Assembly: GCA_016199925.1 (NCBI GenBank) | Contig: JACQFT010000036.1 | Coordinates: forward strand, 1-37,663 | Length of the DNA stretch: 37,663 nt | Source: Opitutia bacterium | Lineage (GTDB): Bacteria > Verrucomicrobiota > Verrucomicrobiia > Opitutales > Opitutaceae | Reading direction: 5' to 3' | In this document: piece by piece, positions 10,188 through 37,588 of the stretch | Layout: each line of letters begins with the position of its first letter | Numbering within the stretch: position 1 is the first letter of the stretch | The notes under the pieces: generated by a model | What the model saw: the letters and a program-made list of their open reading frames with translations, nothing else | The model's database searches: none | Told to the model about the DNA's origin: nothing | Translations under genes and position numbers: made by a program

Positions 10188-11459
10188 TCACGGGGCGGAG
10201 CGGGCGGCGAGGCGGTGAATCTGGCAGCCGGCGAGCAGGAACGCGCCGACGCCGAAGGGTTCGGTGGCGTCGGGGTCGAACTGCTCCGGCATGGACCCGA
10301 CCGGTTGCACGCGGGTGAGCTGCCCGTCGGGCTTCACGCAGCTCAACAACGCCGCCCAAGCCCGGGCAACGACCGGCGTGAACTCCGCGCGGTCGAGCAG
10401 CCCCTCGTTCAGGCCACAGGCGAGCGCGTAGCAAAAAAATCCGGTGCCACTGCTCTCCGGCTCGGGGAACGCGGCCGGATCGAGCAGGCTGGAGCGCCAG
10501 AAGCCGTCGGCGCTTTGCAATTCCGCGATCCGACCGGCCATCGCCCGAAACTGGGCGACGAAGCGCGGGCGGGCGGGATGGGCGGGCGGCAGGGCCGCGA
10601 GCATCCGCACGAGGCCGCCCAGCACCCAGCCGTTGGCGCGCGCCCAGAAAACCTTGGCCCCGTTCTTTTCCCGCCGCGAAAAAAAGCGGCTGTCGCGAAA
10701 GTAGAGTCGTTCCGCCGGGTCGTAGAGGAAATCCGAGGTCACCCACCATTGGCGGATCGCGAACTCGCGGTAGCGCGCCTCGCCCGTCACCTGGCTGAGC
10801 TTGACCCACGCCGGGGGCGCCATGAAGAGCGCGTCGCACCACGACCACCGGTCGAGACCGTCCGGGTTGCGCTCGGGGTCGAAGAGGAGGTTGTCGTCCT
10901 TCGGGTGCGCGAGGATGTCGTCGAACCGCGCGCGCAACGGCGCGATCATCGCGGGGGCGTGTTCCCGCGCGAACAAATCGGCGTAGGTCTGACCGACGGC
11001 GTGGTCGTCGGCGTGATAACGGCGGGCGCCCGGTTGCCAGCCGTTGCCCTCGCCCATGGCGAGCAGGGCGGCGGGAAACCGGGGCTCGGCGGAAATCTCC
11101 ACCAGCGCCATCACCCCGGCGTAGAAGGTCGCATAGTGCCAACCGTCGGGCTTCCAGCGCGGCGCCGGATGAGCGAGTTGCCAGTCGGCCGCTTGCTCCA
11201 GGACCGGCAACGGGGAAACGAACTCCGCTCCGCGCGCCTCCGCGGCGAAAATTAGCCCGGCCAGGAGAACGATGCTGCCGCGGCGGACGAGCGGCTTTCT
11301 TCGCGGCGCGTCCGAAACTCCGTTCCACCGGCCGGCAAAATGTTTCGGTCTTGCGGGGACGGGAAGGACCGGCTCCGTCCGGTCCGCGCTCCGACGGCGG
11401 ACCCGGCGGACGACACGGAGGTCGTCCCTCCAAGGCGGAGCGACGGTCGTCAATGGCAT
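10188..11459 (-). CDS. Glycoside hydrolase family 88/105 (unsaturated rhamnogalacturonyl/uronyl hydrolase-like)
   Basis: ADWQLAHPAPRWKPDGWHYATFYAGVMAL...WSWCDALFMAPPAWVKLSQVTGEARY...FWARANGWVLGGLVRML...SSGTGFFCYALACGLNEGLL. Signal-peptide-like segment RRGSIVLLAGLIFAAEARGA. N-terminal ~40 aa lie in a repeat element. Confidence 0.9.
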   Translation of the reverse strand: MPLTTVAPPWRDDLRVVRRVRRRSADRTEPVLPVPARPKHFAGRWNGVSDAPRRKPLVRRGSIVLLAGLIFAAEARGAEFVSPLPVLEQAADWQLAHPAPRWKPDGWHYATFYAGVMALVEISAEPRFPAALLAMGEGNGWQPGARRYHADDHAVGQTYADLFAREHAPAMIAPLRARFDDILAHPKDDNLLFDPERNPDGLDRWSWCDALFMAPPAWVKLSQVTGEARYREFAIRQWWVTSDFLYDPAERLYFRDSRFFSRREKNGAKVFWARANGWVLGGLVRMLAALPPAHPARPRFVAQFRAMAGRIAELQSADGFWRSSLLDPAAFPEPESSGTGFFCYALACGLNEGLLDRAEFTPVVARAWAALLSCVKPDGQLTRVQPVGSMPEQFDPDATEPFGVGAFLLAGCQIHRLAARSAP

Positions 11460-11512
11460 GAGGTTGGGTGGATGACTCCGGAGCCCGCCGAGGCGGGTAA
11501 ACTGGTTCCGGG
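11340..11512 (-). repeat. Modular hairpin repeat, copy A (upstream of GH105, same strand as gene)
   Basis: Reverse complement reads ATGCCATTGACGACCGTCGCTCCGCCTTGGAGGGACGACCTCCGTGTCGTCCGCC...GCGGACCGGACGGAGCCGGTCC. Hairpin GGACCGG/CCGGTCC at 11366-11385; upstream hairpin CCCGC..GCGGG near 11484-11497. Confidence 0.85.
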
Positions 11513-15110: not shown

Positions 15111-15914
15111 ATGCCGCTCCGCCCGTCCCCGCCCCGCCCGAACGCCGCCGACCAGAAACTGCTGCGTTACGTCATCCCCAACCTCCGCAACGCCTGCCGC
15201 ATCCTCAAGTGGCTCGGCCACAAGCCCGACGGCTGCAAGGCGGCCGACCTCGCGCGCGACCTCCACATCCCGGTCACCACCACGATGCGCATCATGGTCA
15301 CCCTCCAGCTCGAGGGCCTGGTCCGCAAGGTCGAGAGCCGCTTCGAGCTCGGTCCGGTGCTGATCTCGCTCGGCAACGCGTCGCTCGCGGGCACGGAGAT
15401 TCGGGACCTGGCGCTGCCGCTTCTGGCCACCCTCACGGCCCAGACCGACGAGACCTCCCACCTCGCGATCCCCTGCGACGACCGCTCCCTGATCGTCGCC
15501 GTGCAGGACAGCCCCCACCCGCTCCGCGCCGCCTCGCGGCCGGGCTTTCTGGCCGAACTGCATTGTTCGTCCACCGGCAAAGTTTTTCTCGCCTACGCGC
15601 CGAGCCGCCCGTTGGCGGAGATTTTTCCCCGCGGCGCCCCCCGGCGCACCCCGCGCACCAAACGCACTCTGGCCGAGATCAAGCGCGAGATCGAACTCAC
15701 CCGGAAGCGCGGCTACGGACTCGACGACGAGGAGTTTCATCCCGGCGTGCGCTGCCTCGCGGCCCCCATCACCTCCTCCGACGGCGTGGTGGTGGCCGCC
15801 ATTGGCATCACGGCGTCCGTCCAGCGTTTCTCCCGCGAACGGATTCCGGAAATCGCGCGCCTGGTGCGCGCGGCGGCGGACGAACTCTCGCGCCGGCTCG
15901 GCCATGCCCGCTGA
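15111..15914 (+). CDS. IclR-family transcriptional regulator
   Basis: LRNACRILKWLGHKPDGCKAADLARDLHIPVTTTMRIMVTLQLEGLVRKVESRFELGPVLISLG...CSSTGKVFLAYAP...GYGLDDEEFHPGVRCLAAPI. Confidence 0.9.
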   Translation: MPLRPSPPRPNAADQKLLRYVIPNLRNACRILKWLGHKPDGCKAADLARDLHIPVTTTMRIMVTLQLEGLVRKVESRFELGPVLISLGNASLAGTEIRDLALPLLATLTAQTDETSHLAIPCDDRSLIVAVQDSPHPLRAASRPGFLAELHCSSTGKVFLAYAPSRPLAEIFPRGAPRRTPRTKRTLAEIKREIELTRKRGYGLDDEEFHPGVRCLAAPITSSDGVVVAAIGITASVQRFSRERIPEIARLVRAAADELSRRLGHAR

Positions 15915-16107
15915 TTTTTCTCCCCGAGGGCGGGCCGGCCGACCGGGCCCCGGCCCGGACCTGGGGCAACTCGCGACCGCCGCTTCTGTTGGGAGGGAAG
16001 ACCTCCTTGTCGTCGGTCTTGTCACCGGCTGCGGGCCGGATGGAGCCGGTCCCTCCACTCGACCCACCACGCCGTCAGCTTCCAGCCCACCGCCCCGCCA
16101 CCCATGA
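15904..16107 (+). CDS. Putative leader ORF through repeat copy B, stop overlapping the eda start (ATGA)
   Basis: MPADFSPRGRAGRPGPGPDLGQLATAASVGREDLLVVGLVTGCGPDGAGPSTRPTTPSASSPPPRHP*. TGA 16105-16107 overlaps ATG 16104-16106; ATG overlaps the IclR 3' end. Speculative. Confidence 0.3.
   Translation: MPADFSPRGRAGRPGPGPDLGQLATAASVGREDLLVVGLVTGCGPDGAGPSTRPTTPSASSPPPRHP
15962..16056 (+). repeat. Modular hairpin repeat, copy B (upstream of eda, same strand)
   Basis: GGGCAACTCGCGACCGCCGCTTCTGTTGGGAGGGAAGACCTCCTTGTCGTCGG...GGGCCGGATGGAGCCGGTCCCTCC aligns with copies A, C and D. Hairpin at 16033-16052 with G-U in place of A-U. Confidence 0.75.
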
Positions 16108-27246: not shown

Positions 27247-27375
27247 ACTCAGCGCGCGGCGCTGGCACCGGGATTCTTGCCTCACGAACTACCCGACGGC
27301 GCAGCGCAGGGCGAAACGGATCTTTAGCGACTCGCATAACAGCCTGACAGCAGTCGGTTCCGTTCCCGGGAGAGC

Positions 27376-27462
27376 GCACGCGTCTCGCGTGCTGGGGCCG
27401 GCGTCTCGCCGGCCCCTCCGGGAATCCCCGGCGGGACTCCGAGGACAGCCCGCGAGACGCGG
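27376..27462. repeat. Cluster of three stem-TCT/AGA-stem hairpins
   Basis: GCACGCG-tct-CGCGTGC (27376-27392); GGGGCCGGCG-tct-CGCCGGCCCC (27394-27416); CCGCG-aga-CGCGG (27450-27462). Confidence 0.8.
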
Positions 27463-27597
27463 ACCCTCCCCGAGAAAAAAGGCGTCCGCCTTTTGCGCGA
27501 ACCTCAATCGGTCTCGATTTTTGAGCGCGCCTGCCGGCCCGGGCGCCCAGCGGTTTTCCCTTTTGCCACCCTTCCACCCGACGCCCATCGTGGCCGG

Positions 27598-28098: not shown

Positions 28099-28255
28099 AA
28101 GAGCAATCCGTGTGAAGGGTGCAACCCGCAGTCACCTCCGATTCTGTTTCCAAAGGTCGACCCCACATTTTCCGACCCCGGATGCCACGGATGTTCACGG
28201 ATTCAGATTCCGTGTTTCCGCTCTTCCGTCATTCCGCGATTTTTCTGCCCCGCCT

Positions 28256-28346
28256 GACTCCTGAATTCTGGATTCTGGATTCTGACTCCTGACTCCTGAA
28301 TTTTGACTCCTGGATTCTGGATTCTGACTCCTGGATTCTGGATTCC
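28256..28346. repeat. Heptameric tandem array, 13 x 7 nt
   Basis: gactcct gaattct ggattct ggattct gactcct gactcct gaatttt gactcct ggattct ggattct gactcct ggattct ggattcc (consensus G[AG][AC]T[TC]CT), no register slip. Confidence 0.95.
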
Positions 28347-28351
28347 CAAGT

Positions 28352-28813
28352 CTACACCACCTCCGGCGAGATCAGCCAGCGCACGACCCAGCCCGACTCT
28401 TTGCGGTCGAGGCGCATCACGGCGCATTTTTTGAAGACGAAGCTCACCGGTTCTTCCTTGCCCGTCACGAGCAGACTCGCGAGCGCGCTCAGATGCGGCT
28501 CGTGTCCGACGAGCATCACCGGGTGCCGCGTGCCGTTCAGCCGTTTCGCCATCACCTTCGGGTCATCCTCCGGGCGCAGTGCCGCCACCACGAAAGGCTC
28601 CGCCGACAAACGCAACACGCCCGCCAGCCGCTCCGCCGTGTCCTGCGCGCGCAGCAGCGGGCTGTGCCAGACCTCCTCCGCCTCGACCGCGTCCGCTTTG
28701 CGCAGCGTCGCGCCGATCTCGCGGATTTGCGCGATGCCCTTGCCGCTCAACGGCCGCACGGCGTCGTCTTCGCCCCCGAGTGCGTGCGCGTGCCTGACCA
28801 GATAAAGATGCAT
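28352..28813 (-). CDS. sixA: Phosphohistidine phosphatase SixA-like (histidine phosphatase superfamily)
   Basis: MHLYLVRHAHALGGEDDAVRPLSGKGIAQIREIGATL...WHSPLLRAQDTAERLA...PVMLVGHEPHLSALASLLV. Confidence 0.88.
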   Translation of the reverse strand: MHLYLVRHAHALGGEDDAVRPLSGKGIAQIREIGATLRKADAVEAEEVWHSPLLRAQDTAERLAGVLRLSAEPFVVAALRPEDDPKVMAKRLNGTRHPVMLVGHEPHLSALASLLVTGKEEPVSFVFKKCAVMRLDRKESGWVVRWLISPEVV

Positions 28814-32695: not shown

Positions 32696-32829
32696 GGTGC
32701 GAGCCCGTGTGCTCGCGCCTCTGTCCGCTTGCGGGAGCGAGCGTGCTCGCGCCCCTGCCGCCTGTGGGAGTGAGCTTGCTCGCGACCCTGCCGTCTGCGG
32801 GAGCGAGCGTGCTCGCGACTCCTCCGCCG
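32696..32829. repeat. 33-bp tandem array of REP-like palindromes
   Basis: Units at 32731, 32764 and 32797 with exact 33-bp spacing: g[ct]gggag[ct]gagc[gt]tgctcgcg[ac]..., plus a diverged unit at about 32696. Each has a GCGAGC/GCTCGC-type palindrome (GTGAGC in the 32764 unit). Confidence 0.9.
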
Positions 32830-32968
32830 TCGGCCGCGACCCAGCTCTCCCCCGCCCCCTCCTCGCCAAGTCCGGCCGGAGCACCCTCCGGAAATTCGCC
32901 CCGGCCGAGCAGAATTTTTCTCGCGCCCGGCTTGCGGACCGCCGGGGCACCGCCGAGACTCTCCGCCG

Positions 32969-34191: not shown

Positions 34192-34329
34192 CAACAGTGG
34201 CGGCCCGGGGGGAAGCACAGTCGCCGCCTTCGACCGGCGGCACACGCCGGCTGCGGGCCTCGCGCCGCAATTTGCCATCGCCAATCCGTCGGCCCGCTCC
34301 GAATTTCTCCGCGCCCCCACCGCCCGCAA

Positions 34330-34575
34330 CGATCCTCGGAGCAAGTCCCGAGACTTTCAGCCAAACCCCATGCAATTCACGACCCTCACGCCGCCTTGGC
34401 AGGATTCTGCTGGCCAGCAGAGTGTCGTCCGCCGGGCTCCGACCTGGTGGGACGACCTCCGTGTCGTCCGCCGTGGCGTCCGCCGTATTCATCGCCGGAC
34501 CACGGACCGGACGGAGCCGGTCCCTCCCTTCCCAGCAAAGCCGAAGCGAACCTCGGCGTATCGGACCTATTACTT
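34330..34575 (+). repeat. Modular hairpin repeat, copy C (upstream of PLP decarboxylase, same strand)
   Basis: ATCCTCGGAGCAAGTCCCGAG...CCCCATGCAATTCACGACCCTCACGCCGCCTTGGCAGGATTCTGCTGGCCAGCAGAGTGTCGTCC...GGGACGACCTCCGTGTCGTCC...GGACCGGACGGAGCCGGTCCCTCC...AAGCCGAAGCGAACCTCGGCGTATCGGACC. Confidence 0.9.
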
Positions 34576-34579
34576 ATGA
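34370..34579 (+). CDS. Putative 69-aa leader ORF in repeat copy C, stop overlapping the decarboxylase start (ATGA)
   Basis: MQFTTLTPPWQDSAGQQSVVRRAPTWWDDLRVVRRGVRRIHRRTTDRTEPVPPFPAKPKRTSAYRTYYL*. TGA 34577-34579 overlaps ATG 34576-34578. Confidence 0.4.
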   Translation: MQFTTLTPPWQDSAGQQSVVRRAPTWWDDLRVVRRGVRRIHRRTTDRTEPVPPFPAKPKRTSAYRTYYL

Positions 34580-35922
34580 AAGAAATTCTGACCGACGCCT
34601 CCGCCCGCGCGATTCGCTACCTGCAAGGCCTTGAGACCCGCGCGGTGGCGCCGACGCCCGCCGCCGTCGCCGCGCTGTGCGCCTTCGACGAGCCGCTGCC
34701 GGAAAATTCCTCTGCGCCCGCCGACACGCTGCGCCTGCTCGACGAGGTCGGCTCGCCGGCCACGGCGTCGATGGCCGGCCCGCGCTACTTCGGTTTCGTC
34801 ATCGGCGGCGCGCTGCCCGTCACGCTCGCGGCCAACTGGCTCGCGGGCGCGTGGGACCAGAACACTCATTATTACCGGGCGACGCCCGGCACGGCCTACC
34901 TCGAGCAAATCGCGCTGCGTTGGCTGCTCGACGTGCTGCGCCTGCCGGCGGAGTGCTCGGGCGCGTTCGTCACCGGCGCGACCGTCGCCAATCTCTGCGC
35001 GCTCGCCGCCGCCCGCCACGCCGTGCTCAAGGCCGCCGGGTGGAACGTCGAAGCGCACGGGCTCTTCGGCGCGCCGCCCATCACGGTGCTCGTCGGCGCG
35101 GAGGTTCATCCCTCGGTCACCAAATCGCTGGGCGTGCTCGGCCTCGGCCGCAGCCGCGTGGTGAAAATTCCCGTCGATGGTCAGGGCCGGATGCGCGCCG
35201 ACGCGCTGCCGGCGATCGCCGGTCCCACCATCGTCTGCGTGCAGGCGGGCAACGTGAACACGGGCGCGTTCGATCCCGTCGCCGAGATCTGCGCGCGGGC
35301 CCACGCGGCCGGCGCGTGGGTGCATGTCGACGGTGCGTTCGGGCTCTGGGCCGCCGCCGCCCCGTCGCGGCTTCATCTCGCCGCCGGCGTCGCGCTCGCC
35401 GATTCGTGGGCGACCGACGCCCACAAGTGGCTCAACGTCCCCTACGATTGCGGCCTCGCTTTCGTGCGCGATCCCCTCGCCTTGCAGGCCGCGATGGCGA
35501 TCACGGCCGAATACCTGCCGACGCAGGGCACCGCCCGCAATCACGCGGACTTCACGCCCGAGCTGTCGCGCCGCGCGCGCGGCGTCGAAGTCTGGGCGGC
35601 GCTGCACGCGCTCGGCCGCGCGGGCCTCGCCGAGCTGATCGAGCGCAACTGCGCGCAAGCGCGCCGCTTCGCCGCCGGACTCACGGCGGCCGGCCTCGAG
35701 GTCCTCAACGACGTCGTGCTCAACCAGGTGCTCGTCGCCTTCGGCGACGCCGCGCAGACTGCCCGTGTCATCCAGGCGATTCAGGACGATGGCACGTGCT
35801 GGGCCGGCGTCACCGTCTGGCAGGGCCGCACCGCGATGCGGATCAGCGTCTCCTCCTGGGCGACGACCGACGCCGACGTGGACCGCAGTCTCGCGGCCAT
35901 CGTGCGCCTCGCGCGGGCCTGA
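34576..35922 (+). CDS. PLP-dependent decarboxylase (aromatic-L-amino-acid/glutamate decarboxylase group)
   Basis: TYRATPGTAYLE-type region (HYYRATPGTAYLEQIALRWLLDVLRLP), GAFVTGATVANLCALAAARH, AWVHVDGAFGLWAA, SWATDAHKWLNVPYDCG (PLP lysine). Confidence 0.9.
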   Translation: MKEILTDASARAIRYLQGLETRAVAPTPAAVAALCAFDEPLPENSSAPADTLRLLDEVGSPATASMAGPRYFGFVIGGALPVTLAANWLAGAWDQNTHYYRATPGTAYLEQIALRWLLDVLRLPAECSGAFVTGATVANLCALAAARHAVLKAAGWNVEAHGLFGAPPITVLVGAEVHPSVTKSLGVLGLGRSRVVKIPVDGQGRMRADALPAIAGPTIVCVQAGNVNTGAFDPVAEICARAHAAGAWVHVDGAFGLWAAAAPSRLHLAAGVALADSWATDAHKWLNVPYDCGLAFVRDPLALQAAMAITAEYLPTQGTARNHADFTPELSRRARGVEVWAALHALGRAGLAELIERNCAQARRFAAGLTAAGLEVLNDVVLNQVLVAFGDAAQTARVIQAIQDDGTCWAGVTVWQGRTAMRISVSSWATTDADVDRSLAAIVRLARA

Positions 35923-36968: not shown

Positions 36969-37394
36969 TCAAGCCAACTGCGCGTCGAGCGTGATCGTGG
37001 CGTTGAGCACGCGGGAGACCGGGCAGCCGGCCTTGGCCTTTGCGGCGATCGCGGCGAACTTCGCGGCGTCGAGGCCGGGCACCTTCGCACGCACCACGAG
37101 ATGCGACGCGGTGATGGTCCAGCCCTGCGGCGGCACGTTTTCGAAATTCAACTCGGCGGAGGAGTCCAGCCGCTCGGGCGGGCAGCCCGCTTCGCCGAGG
37201 GCGGCGGCCAGCGCCATCGCAAAACAGCCGGCGTGGGCCGCGGCGATCAGCTCCTCGGGATTGGTGCCGGCGCCCGAGGCAAAGCGCGAGCCGAACGAAT
37301 ACTCGGTGTTCCGCAACGCGCCGCCGGGAGAGGTCAGCGTGCCCTTGCCTTCTTTGAGCGAACCTTGCCAGACGGCGGAGGCAGTGCGTTTCAT
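36969..37394 (-). CDS. OsmC-family peroxiredoxin
   Basis: MKRTASAVWQGSLKEGKGTLTSPGGALRNTEYSFGSRFASGAGTNPEELIAAAHAGCFAMALAAALGEAGCPPERL...GCPVSRVLNATITLDAQL. Confidence 0.93.
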   Translation of the reverse strand: MKRTASAVWQGSLKEGKGTLTSPGGALRNTEYSFGSRFASGAGTNPEELIAAAHAGCFAMALAAALGEAGCPPERLDSSAELNFENVPPQGWTITASHLVVRAKVPGLDAAKFAAIAAKAKAGCPVSRVLNATITLDAQLA

Positions 37395-37543
37395 TCGCGA
37401 TGGGTCCGATACCCCGGAGTTTGCTCCGGCTTGGTTTGGGTGGAGGGACCGGCTCCGTCCGGTCCGCGGATTGCGAAAAGACGGACGACATTCTGCTGGC
37501 CAGCAGAATCCCTCCAAGGCGAAGCGATGGTCGTGAGTTGCAT
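37391..37543 (-). CDS. Putative 50-aa leader ORF in repeat copy D, stop overlapping the osmC start (ATGA)
   Basis: MQLTTIASPWRDSAGQQNVVRLFAIRGPDGAGPSTQTKPEQTPGYRTHRE*. TGA occupies 37393-37391, overlapping ATG 37394-37392. Not in the ORF track (below 60 aa). Confidence 0.4.
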   Translation of the reverse strand: MQLTTIASPWRDSAGQQNVVRLFAIRGPDGAGPSTQTKPEQTPGYRTHRE

Positions 37544-37588
37544 GGGGACTGGTCGAATGCCTCGGGGCTTGCCCCGAGGATGTTTACT
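37395..37588 (-). repeat. Modular hairpin repeat, copy D (upstream of osmC, same strand)
   Basis: Reverse complement: CATCCTCGGGGCAAGCCCCGAGGCATTCGACCAGTCCCCATGCAACTCACGACCATCGCTTCGCCTTGGAGGGATTCTGCTGGCCAGCAGAATGTCGTCC...GCGGACCGGACGGAGCCGGTCCCTCC...CCGGAGCAAACTCCGGGGTATCGGACCCATCGCGA. Confidence 0.92.

Follow-up and report, generated by a model that had tools for sequence, protein, structure and literature searches.

The insertion point of IS608, of the IS200/IS605 family, is 3′ of a tetranucleotide which its left flank retains, and the guide at the foot of its hairpin pairs with the first two target positions (A+16:T-3 and A+17:T-4; PMC5934647). The Opitutaceae element considered here likewise has its insertion point 3′ of a retained tetranucleotide, a guide at a hairpin foot and pairing of the first two guide and target bases, but it targets TCAT or TTAT rather than TTAC, two natural guide variants coexist and the copies studied are without tnpA. 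It shares with the IS605-type PATEs of Haloquadratum walsbyi the lack of a transposase, subterminal palindromes without terminal inverted repeats, the lack of target duplication, ends in common with IS605-type transposons, and a tendency to be hit by other small mobile repeats (PMC3119063), the repeat in this case being a REPIN-like core. Unlike those PATEs it is bacterial, on the strand of the genes its ends spell stop and stop/start codons, and it has an ORF that is kept in phase and ends on the target. IS605-derived PATEs with small repeats inside are already known from Haloquadratum (PMC3119063); the new part would be the relay function proposed below.

REPINs and GTAG-type REPs with their RAYTs (PMC3116915, PMC3733652) are matched by an inverted pair of tagged palindromes and by a RAYT gene between two solo copies, and REPs are abundant in Opitutus terrae (PMC3733652); in contrast to described REPINs, however, the REPIN here is a passenger in another element, the shell of which also occurs with other cores or none. 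A functional parallel is offered by integron ORF-11 and the short ORFs of attC sites, where a short ORF in a recombination site obtains its stop codon from the inserted cassette, ribosomes are carried through the attC hairpins and there is coupling to the next gene (PMC8876359). ORF-11 is nevertheless unrelated, has its own Shine-Dalgarno site and belongs to tyrosine-recombinase biology. BOX elements (PMC3049150) and the Rickettsia palindromic elements (PMC3733652, PMC10969869) are likewise non-autonomous repeats, modular or palindromic in structure, which give rise to ORFs and extend operons or genes; guide-directed ATGA insertion and a target-ending ORF are not reported for them in the accessible portions of those sources. 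A literature search that reached a minority of the subscription papers found no element that targets ATGA overlaps or has a phase-kept ORF ending on its target.

The window, a 37,663-nt stretch of DNA from an Opitutaceae MAG, has four copies of the element. Our preferred reading, with a probability of roughly 0.7, is that the family is a non-autonomous PATE of the IS200/IS605 family with a REPIN-like passenger, that it inserts before ATGA, and that translation may be relayed across it.

Copies in the window and spread of the family

The first-pass annotation had distinguished four copies, A to D, with a common order of modules, and both sequence comparison and nhmmer bear this out (Table 1). 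Chance is ruled out as their origin: when up to 3 mismatches are allowed, the window contains 4 matches to an 18-nt hairpin, GACGACCTCCGTGTCGTC, where 0.06 would be expected. The genes 3′ of the copies are, as had been noted, mutually unrelated. The description of each copy as adjoining its gene is accurate for C and D, which have complete right ends and abut the starts of the PLP-dependent decarboxylase gene and osmC (both named by Pfam), and inaccurate for A, which does not abut the called GH88/GH105 start. Copies A and B are degenerate; what is left of B (about 15966-16103, + strand) is mainly core, together with an ORF in frame that closes with a TGA overlapping the ATG of eda.

Table 1. 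Coordinates of the four copies and their parts in the window
Feature	Position	Strand	Basis
Copy D, complete element (GTAA end to base before ATGA), 5′ of osmC	37395..37587	-	nhmmer 154 bits, model 1-190; boundaries set by consensus and ATGA target
Copy D, ATGA target: osmC start codon and TGA stop of element ORF	37391..37394	-	
Copy D, element ORF, 50 codons, MQLTTIASPWRD...GYRTHRE*	37391..37543	-	
Copy D, subterminal hairpin beside GTAA end (right end in transposase orientation)	37560..37579	-	sequence; common to intact elements
Copy D, REPIN-like core GGAGGGATT...GGTCCCTCC	37442..37515	-	sequence; RAYT gene beside solo copies
Copy D, subterminal hairpin CCGGAGCAAACTCCGG beside ATGA end (left end in transposase orientation)	37414..37429	-	sequence
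Copy D, TATC, complement of guide GATA at hairpin foot; its C pairs with G of ATGA	37408..37411	-	covariation
Copy C, two partial cores in tandem, 5′ of PLP-dependent decarboxylase gene	34326..34575	+	nhmmer matches 34328-34430 and 34436-34580
Copy C, element ORF, 69 codons; TGA overlaps decarboxylase ATG at 34576	34370..34579	+	
Copy A, degenerate, terminal ATGA lost (AGAA)	about 11298..11484	-	nhmmer 57 bits
ORF from element ATG of copy A, in frame into GH88/GH105 gene (fusion)	10188..11459	-	ORF and Pfam
Copy B, degenerate element core 5′ of eda	15966..16070	+	nhmmer 45 bits
ORF through copy B, 67 codons; start inside end of upstream gene; TGA overlaps eda ATG at 16104	15904..16107	+	

A 20-nt hairpin, GGACCGGACGGAGCCGGTCC, has 105 matches in the 3.79-Mb MAG at up to 2 mismatches and its reversed control has none, and among 56 relatives only the congener G001 matches (up to 1 mismatch). 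About 1.15 Mb surrounding the copies was gathered from the same genome and then searched with a 190-nt consensus, which gave 118 matches, 78 of them nearly complete; the copies are related by descent, and the counts here and below are of copies rather than of independent events. Some part of the consensus is matched in 57 of 150 genomes and 26 of 49 genera of the family. When the exact ATGA-type end was searched for with one genome per species, the matches listed were all titled Opitutia, Opitutae, Opitutaceae, Opitutus, Lacunisphaera or Verrucomicrobia/Verrucomicrobiota. The length of the element, about 135-250 bp, is too short for a transposase gene.

A shell with a REPIN-like core

The consensus is GTAAACATCCTCGGGGCAAGCCCCGAGGCATTCGACCAATCCCC-ATG-CAACTCACGACC...(core)...AAGCCGGAGCAAGCTCCGGGGTATCGGACCCAYYGCGA-ATGA, with an outer shell of two hairpins and GTAA...ATGA ends, so that subterminal palindromes lie close to both ends and terminal inverted repeats are absent. 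The inner part, GGAGGGAC(hairpin)GTCC...GGAC(hairpin)GTCCCTCC, consists of two tagged palindromes in inverted orientation and, as in REPINs, is present in many copies; it also occurs solo, and between two copies there is a gene for a RAYT, a REP-associated tyrosine transposase (L037:1369-1863; NF047646, 83 bits with a cut-off of 80). Because of the inverted palindrome pair, the solo copies and the position of the RAYT gene, the core looks like a REPIN carried as a passenger. A REPIN as the whole unit was rejected in view of the shells with other cores or none: in relatives within the family the shell is widespread and its core is swapped or absent. At locus L236 (genome G135) two right ends of the shell lie 58 nt apart, one element having inserted into or beside another.

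Ends, guide and target

Intact elements in other genera have the ends of the shell in common. At locus L124 of genome G074 a 151-aa Y1 transposase of the IS200 type (PF01797, 117 bits; NF033573, 115 bits) is flanked by both of them, and its relatives are between or beside them in G090 (two copies), G009, G119 and G066. In the orientation of the transposase the left end is T(C/T)AT, directly followed by TCNC...GGGTCC(G/A)ATA-hairpin, while hairpin-AT(C/G)TTTAC forms the right end. Judged by these sequences, the shell is in all probability a non-autonomous IS200/IS605-type element, that is, a PATE. Mobility, which had been surmised, is thus upheld by the type of the ends together with the guide/target pairing and the clean empty sites described below; no matching TnpA was found in the 89%-complete MAG itself, so present mobility is putative.

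On the transposase strand the guides are GATA or AATA and the targets TCAT or TTAT, and so with pairing like that of IS608 the first base of the guide is expected to covary with the second base of the target. Among the fetched relatives, read on the gene strand, C goes with ATGA in 47 cases and with ATAA in 2, and T with ATGA in none and with ATAA in 14 (Fisher 3e-12); in the MAG itself C is present in 45/45 ATGA copies. The same covariation is visible in a scan of 200 genomes with a pattern that allowed all four guide/target combinations, and the pairing positions of the guide are those of IS608.

For the insertion point, the flanks of copies in the MAG were joined in silico and aligned to element-free relatives, the joined-flank query consisting of eight sites and 1597 nt. 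Clean empty sites, at which the boundary has neither gained nor lost a base, were found for L069, L112, L056 and L064 against G001 and for L046 against G011. A sixth, L097 against G025, is in a pyrG-kdsA pair (identified by Pfam), where the MAG has ...GCC AAG AA/G TAA AG...GCGA/ATGATTTTC and G025 has ...GCG AAG AA/A TGA TCTTC, slashes marking the junctions. At all six the element is directly 5′ of ATGA without target duplication, and at L069, L056, L064, L046 and L097 the upstream gene now stops at the TAA of the element where the empty site is a stop/start overlap, xxA TGA. The alignment of L083 (mtnA-mtnB) to G001 was not comparable and gave no clean empty site.

Gene context

With genes called by a home-made hexamer gene finder trained on the fetched DNA, 33 of the 75 copies that have a right end lie exactly at the start of a called gene and another 23 have an opposite-strand gene facing them, so the statement that the repeat is always 5′ of a gene does not extend from the window to the genome. 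Tabulation of position and strand across the MAG shows that the upstream, same-strand bias is real for copies ending in ATGA and does not hold for the family as a whole. The right ends are NTGA in 49 copies (ATGA in 45), and 33 of these 49 are the exact start of a called gene, against a null of 33% from the ATGA sites outside genes (343/1034 are gene starts; binomial 2e-6). With the 5-mer ATGAA the null rises to 49%, with 26/35 observed at starts (p 0.003). Where the left end is intact (31 copies), the upstream gene ends in the TAA of the element at 10, compared with 49 stop/start overlaps among the 1034 candidate sites (p 1e-6).

In Opitutus sp. Baikal-deep-G227 there has been a recent burst of nearly identical 135-bp copies, and 9/34 of these, at loci picked by a pattern that itself contains ATGA, coincide with starts, the null being 30%. 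The upstream, same-strand placement follows from the target, since ATGA includes a start codon; in the simplest reading ATGA is what the transposase picks, and copies at starts are retained longer. Recruitment of a cassette for its 5′ position, as the first-pass annotation had it, is then not needed, given a target that holds the start codon and a fresh burst at 9/34 against 30%.

Copies ending in ACAA or ACGA (L039, L045, L048, L061, L085, L091, L097, L103 and L109) are 3′ of genes and mostly without the ATG, and 10/11 with such ends face an opposite-strand, convergent gene. Their ends may represent a third class of target or targets that have decayed, and the copies themselves are perhaps terminator-like. 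At L096:4326-4506 and at L135 the ORF that follows starts within a conserved domain (hisI-like DADTQQVLMLGYMNTEAL and nucleotide-sugar dehydratase-like MNTGGAGFIGSNF, respectively), as if the element had taken the place of the initial codons.

An open reading frame that ends on the target

The ATGA copies, C and D of the window included, read ATG CAA CTC ... GAA TGA, the TGA being formed by the target ATGA. An open, in-phase frame overlapping the next start codon, as in a leader ORF, is present in 39/42 ATGA-type copies that have the site and in 4/16 others (Fisher 7e-7). Distances from the ATG to the TGA are multiples of three for 13 of 14 distinct values; the leader 5′ of the ATG, with lengths of 42, 43, 44, 45 and 57, is not so held. 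By alignment, 28/29 ATGA-type copies have a net change in ORF length that is divisible by three, against 6/13 others (Fisher 0.0004), and where a copy has an indel not divisible by three this is compensated in 4/5 of the ATGA type and 1/8 of the other class. In L097, L046 and L109, which are one core subtype and not three independent events, the core is read in another frame and yet phase is regained before the TGA, from which it follows that what is kept is phase and not peptide.

Relatives with unrelated cores have the same property: counted by frame, an ATG within the first 75 nt in frame and open to the end is present in 29, 3 and 1 of 49 ATGA elements, or 11, 3 and 1 of 28 after dereplication. 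In elements ending in ATAA that frame is often closed by TAT TGA. The ORF is intact in 12/12 copies without a called gene 3′ and in 27/30 at gene starts; being equally intact with or without a gene, it argues against selection locus by locus, and the same pattern would result from selection on source elements or from recent copying.

No Shine-Dalgarno sequence was found before the ORF starts (0/42) or the element-borne gene starts (0/33) of the MAG, and across that genome the sequence precedes 8% of starts and is no rarer (8%) in a control window. The repeat as donor of a Shine-Dalgarno site was thus rejected, 0/33 starts and 0/42 ORFs having one and the genome showing no such signal. The lineage seems to initiate without it, and in the absence of enrichment an insert just 5′ of an ATG removes no such site.

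A possible translation relay

On the strand that is transposed the left end would adjoin the target TCAT, picked by pairing of the guide GATA at the hairpin foot, and the right end would finish in TTAC. Read on the gene strand, TCAT and TTAC become ATGA and GTAA, and insertion would be directly before ATGA. At the stop/start overlap of an operon the GTAA would close the frame of the upstream gene with a new stop (xxA TGA to xxG TAA), and the target ATGA would remain as start of the downstream gene. By itself the insert would uncouple the two genes by 135-250 nt of hairpin-rich DNA, but the ORF of the element, with its start about 40-65 nt past the new stop and its end on the next start, could restore coupling by termination-reinitiation. 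Ribosomes coming off the upstream gene may restart at the element ATG, cross the element and be passed to the downstream ATG, and by keeping the operon translated such a relay would allow open-frame insertions to be tolerated and kept. We propose that in this way the ORF relays translation across the insert. A translation-initiation module, one of several functions suggested at first, comes nearest to this: the ATGA copies do keep an open frame ending in a stop/start overlap, and an effect on expression is putative.

The relay has to be weighed against a plain selfish PATE with a REPIN passenger, whose position and orientation would reflect the availability of ATGA and the loss of harmful copies, and whose frame would be inherited from a few sources and without function. 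We regard this as unlikely, though it would be in keeping with start use at the null level in the recent burst, with an ORF just as intact where no gene is downstream, and with other frames too often being stop-free in GC-rich DNA. It sits less well with the frame specificity of an ATG in phase with the TGA (29/3/1), with a compensation of frame-breaking indels that is restricted to the ATGA class, and with lengths 5′ of the ATG that are not confined to multiples of three. The stronger form of the preferred reading, that of an operon-adapted element in which the cleavage motifs double as stop and stop/start codons, the relay ORF is selected for its frame and insertion is nearly silent, is in our estimation evenly balanced.

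Spread of a recruited regulatory cassette (promoter, riboregulator or 5′-UTR module) through regulation of the genes downstream is improbable. The excess at gene starts over the null in the MAG (33/49, p 2e-6) and the conservation of the hairpins would suit it, but the hairpins are those of the transposase ends, the downstream genes are unrelated, the recent burst is without preference for starts, and the ACAA/ACGA copies are between convergent genes (10/11). No Rfam family matches the element, the window having 0 matches at gathering thresholds, and no evidence was found for the promoter or riboregulator that had been suggested. It is scarcely credible that the ORF encodes a functional small protein spread by the element: N- and C-terminal residues (MQLTT..., ...GYRTHxE) are conserved in many copies, but they follow the hairpin sequences, minimal relatives have only 24 aa, there is no Pfam or NCBIfam match, and the middle is read in different frames (L097, L046, L109), on which ground a conserved small protein was rejected.

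In compact bacterial genomes mobile elements must avoid breaking operons, and here a target picked by a guide through DNA-DNA pairing coincides with a common operon junction, ATGA, in an element that appears to be selected to stay translatable. If true, insertion between translationally coupled genes would preserve their coupling and be nearly silent, which offers a testable route to an operon-transparent transposon. The choice of target accounts for what had the appearance of a regulatory cassette, and the natural variants GATA/TCAT and AATA/TTAT are useful for studies of IS200/IS605 insertion. For annotation it needs to be kept in mind that short ORFs and fused N-termini beside copies derive from the element.

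Other repeats in the window

Tandem REP-like palindromes (GTGGGAGYGAGCTTGCTCGCGA) at 32725-32847 of the window resemble the REPs of Pseudomonas. A pair related to them, GTGGGAGCG..., is the core of shell copies L062, L071, L082, L083, L091 and L097. A long inverted repeat at 27369-27471 (GGAGAGCGCACGCGTCTCGCGTGC...) matches a third type of core, inside shell copies L090 and L106, and at 28253-28357 there is a short intergenic tandem array of CCTGACTCCTGAATTCTGGATT-like units.
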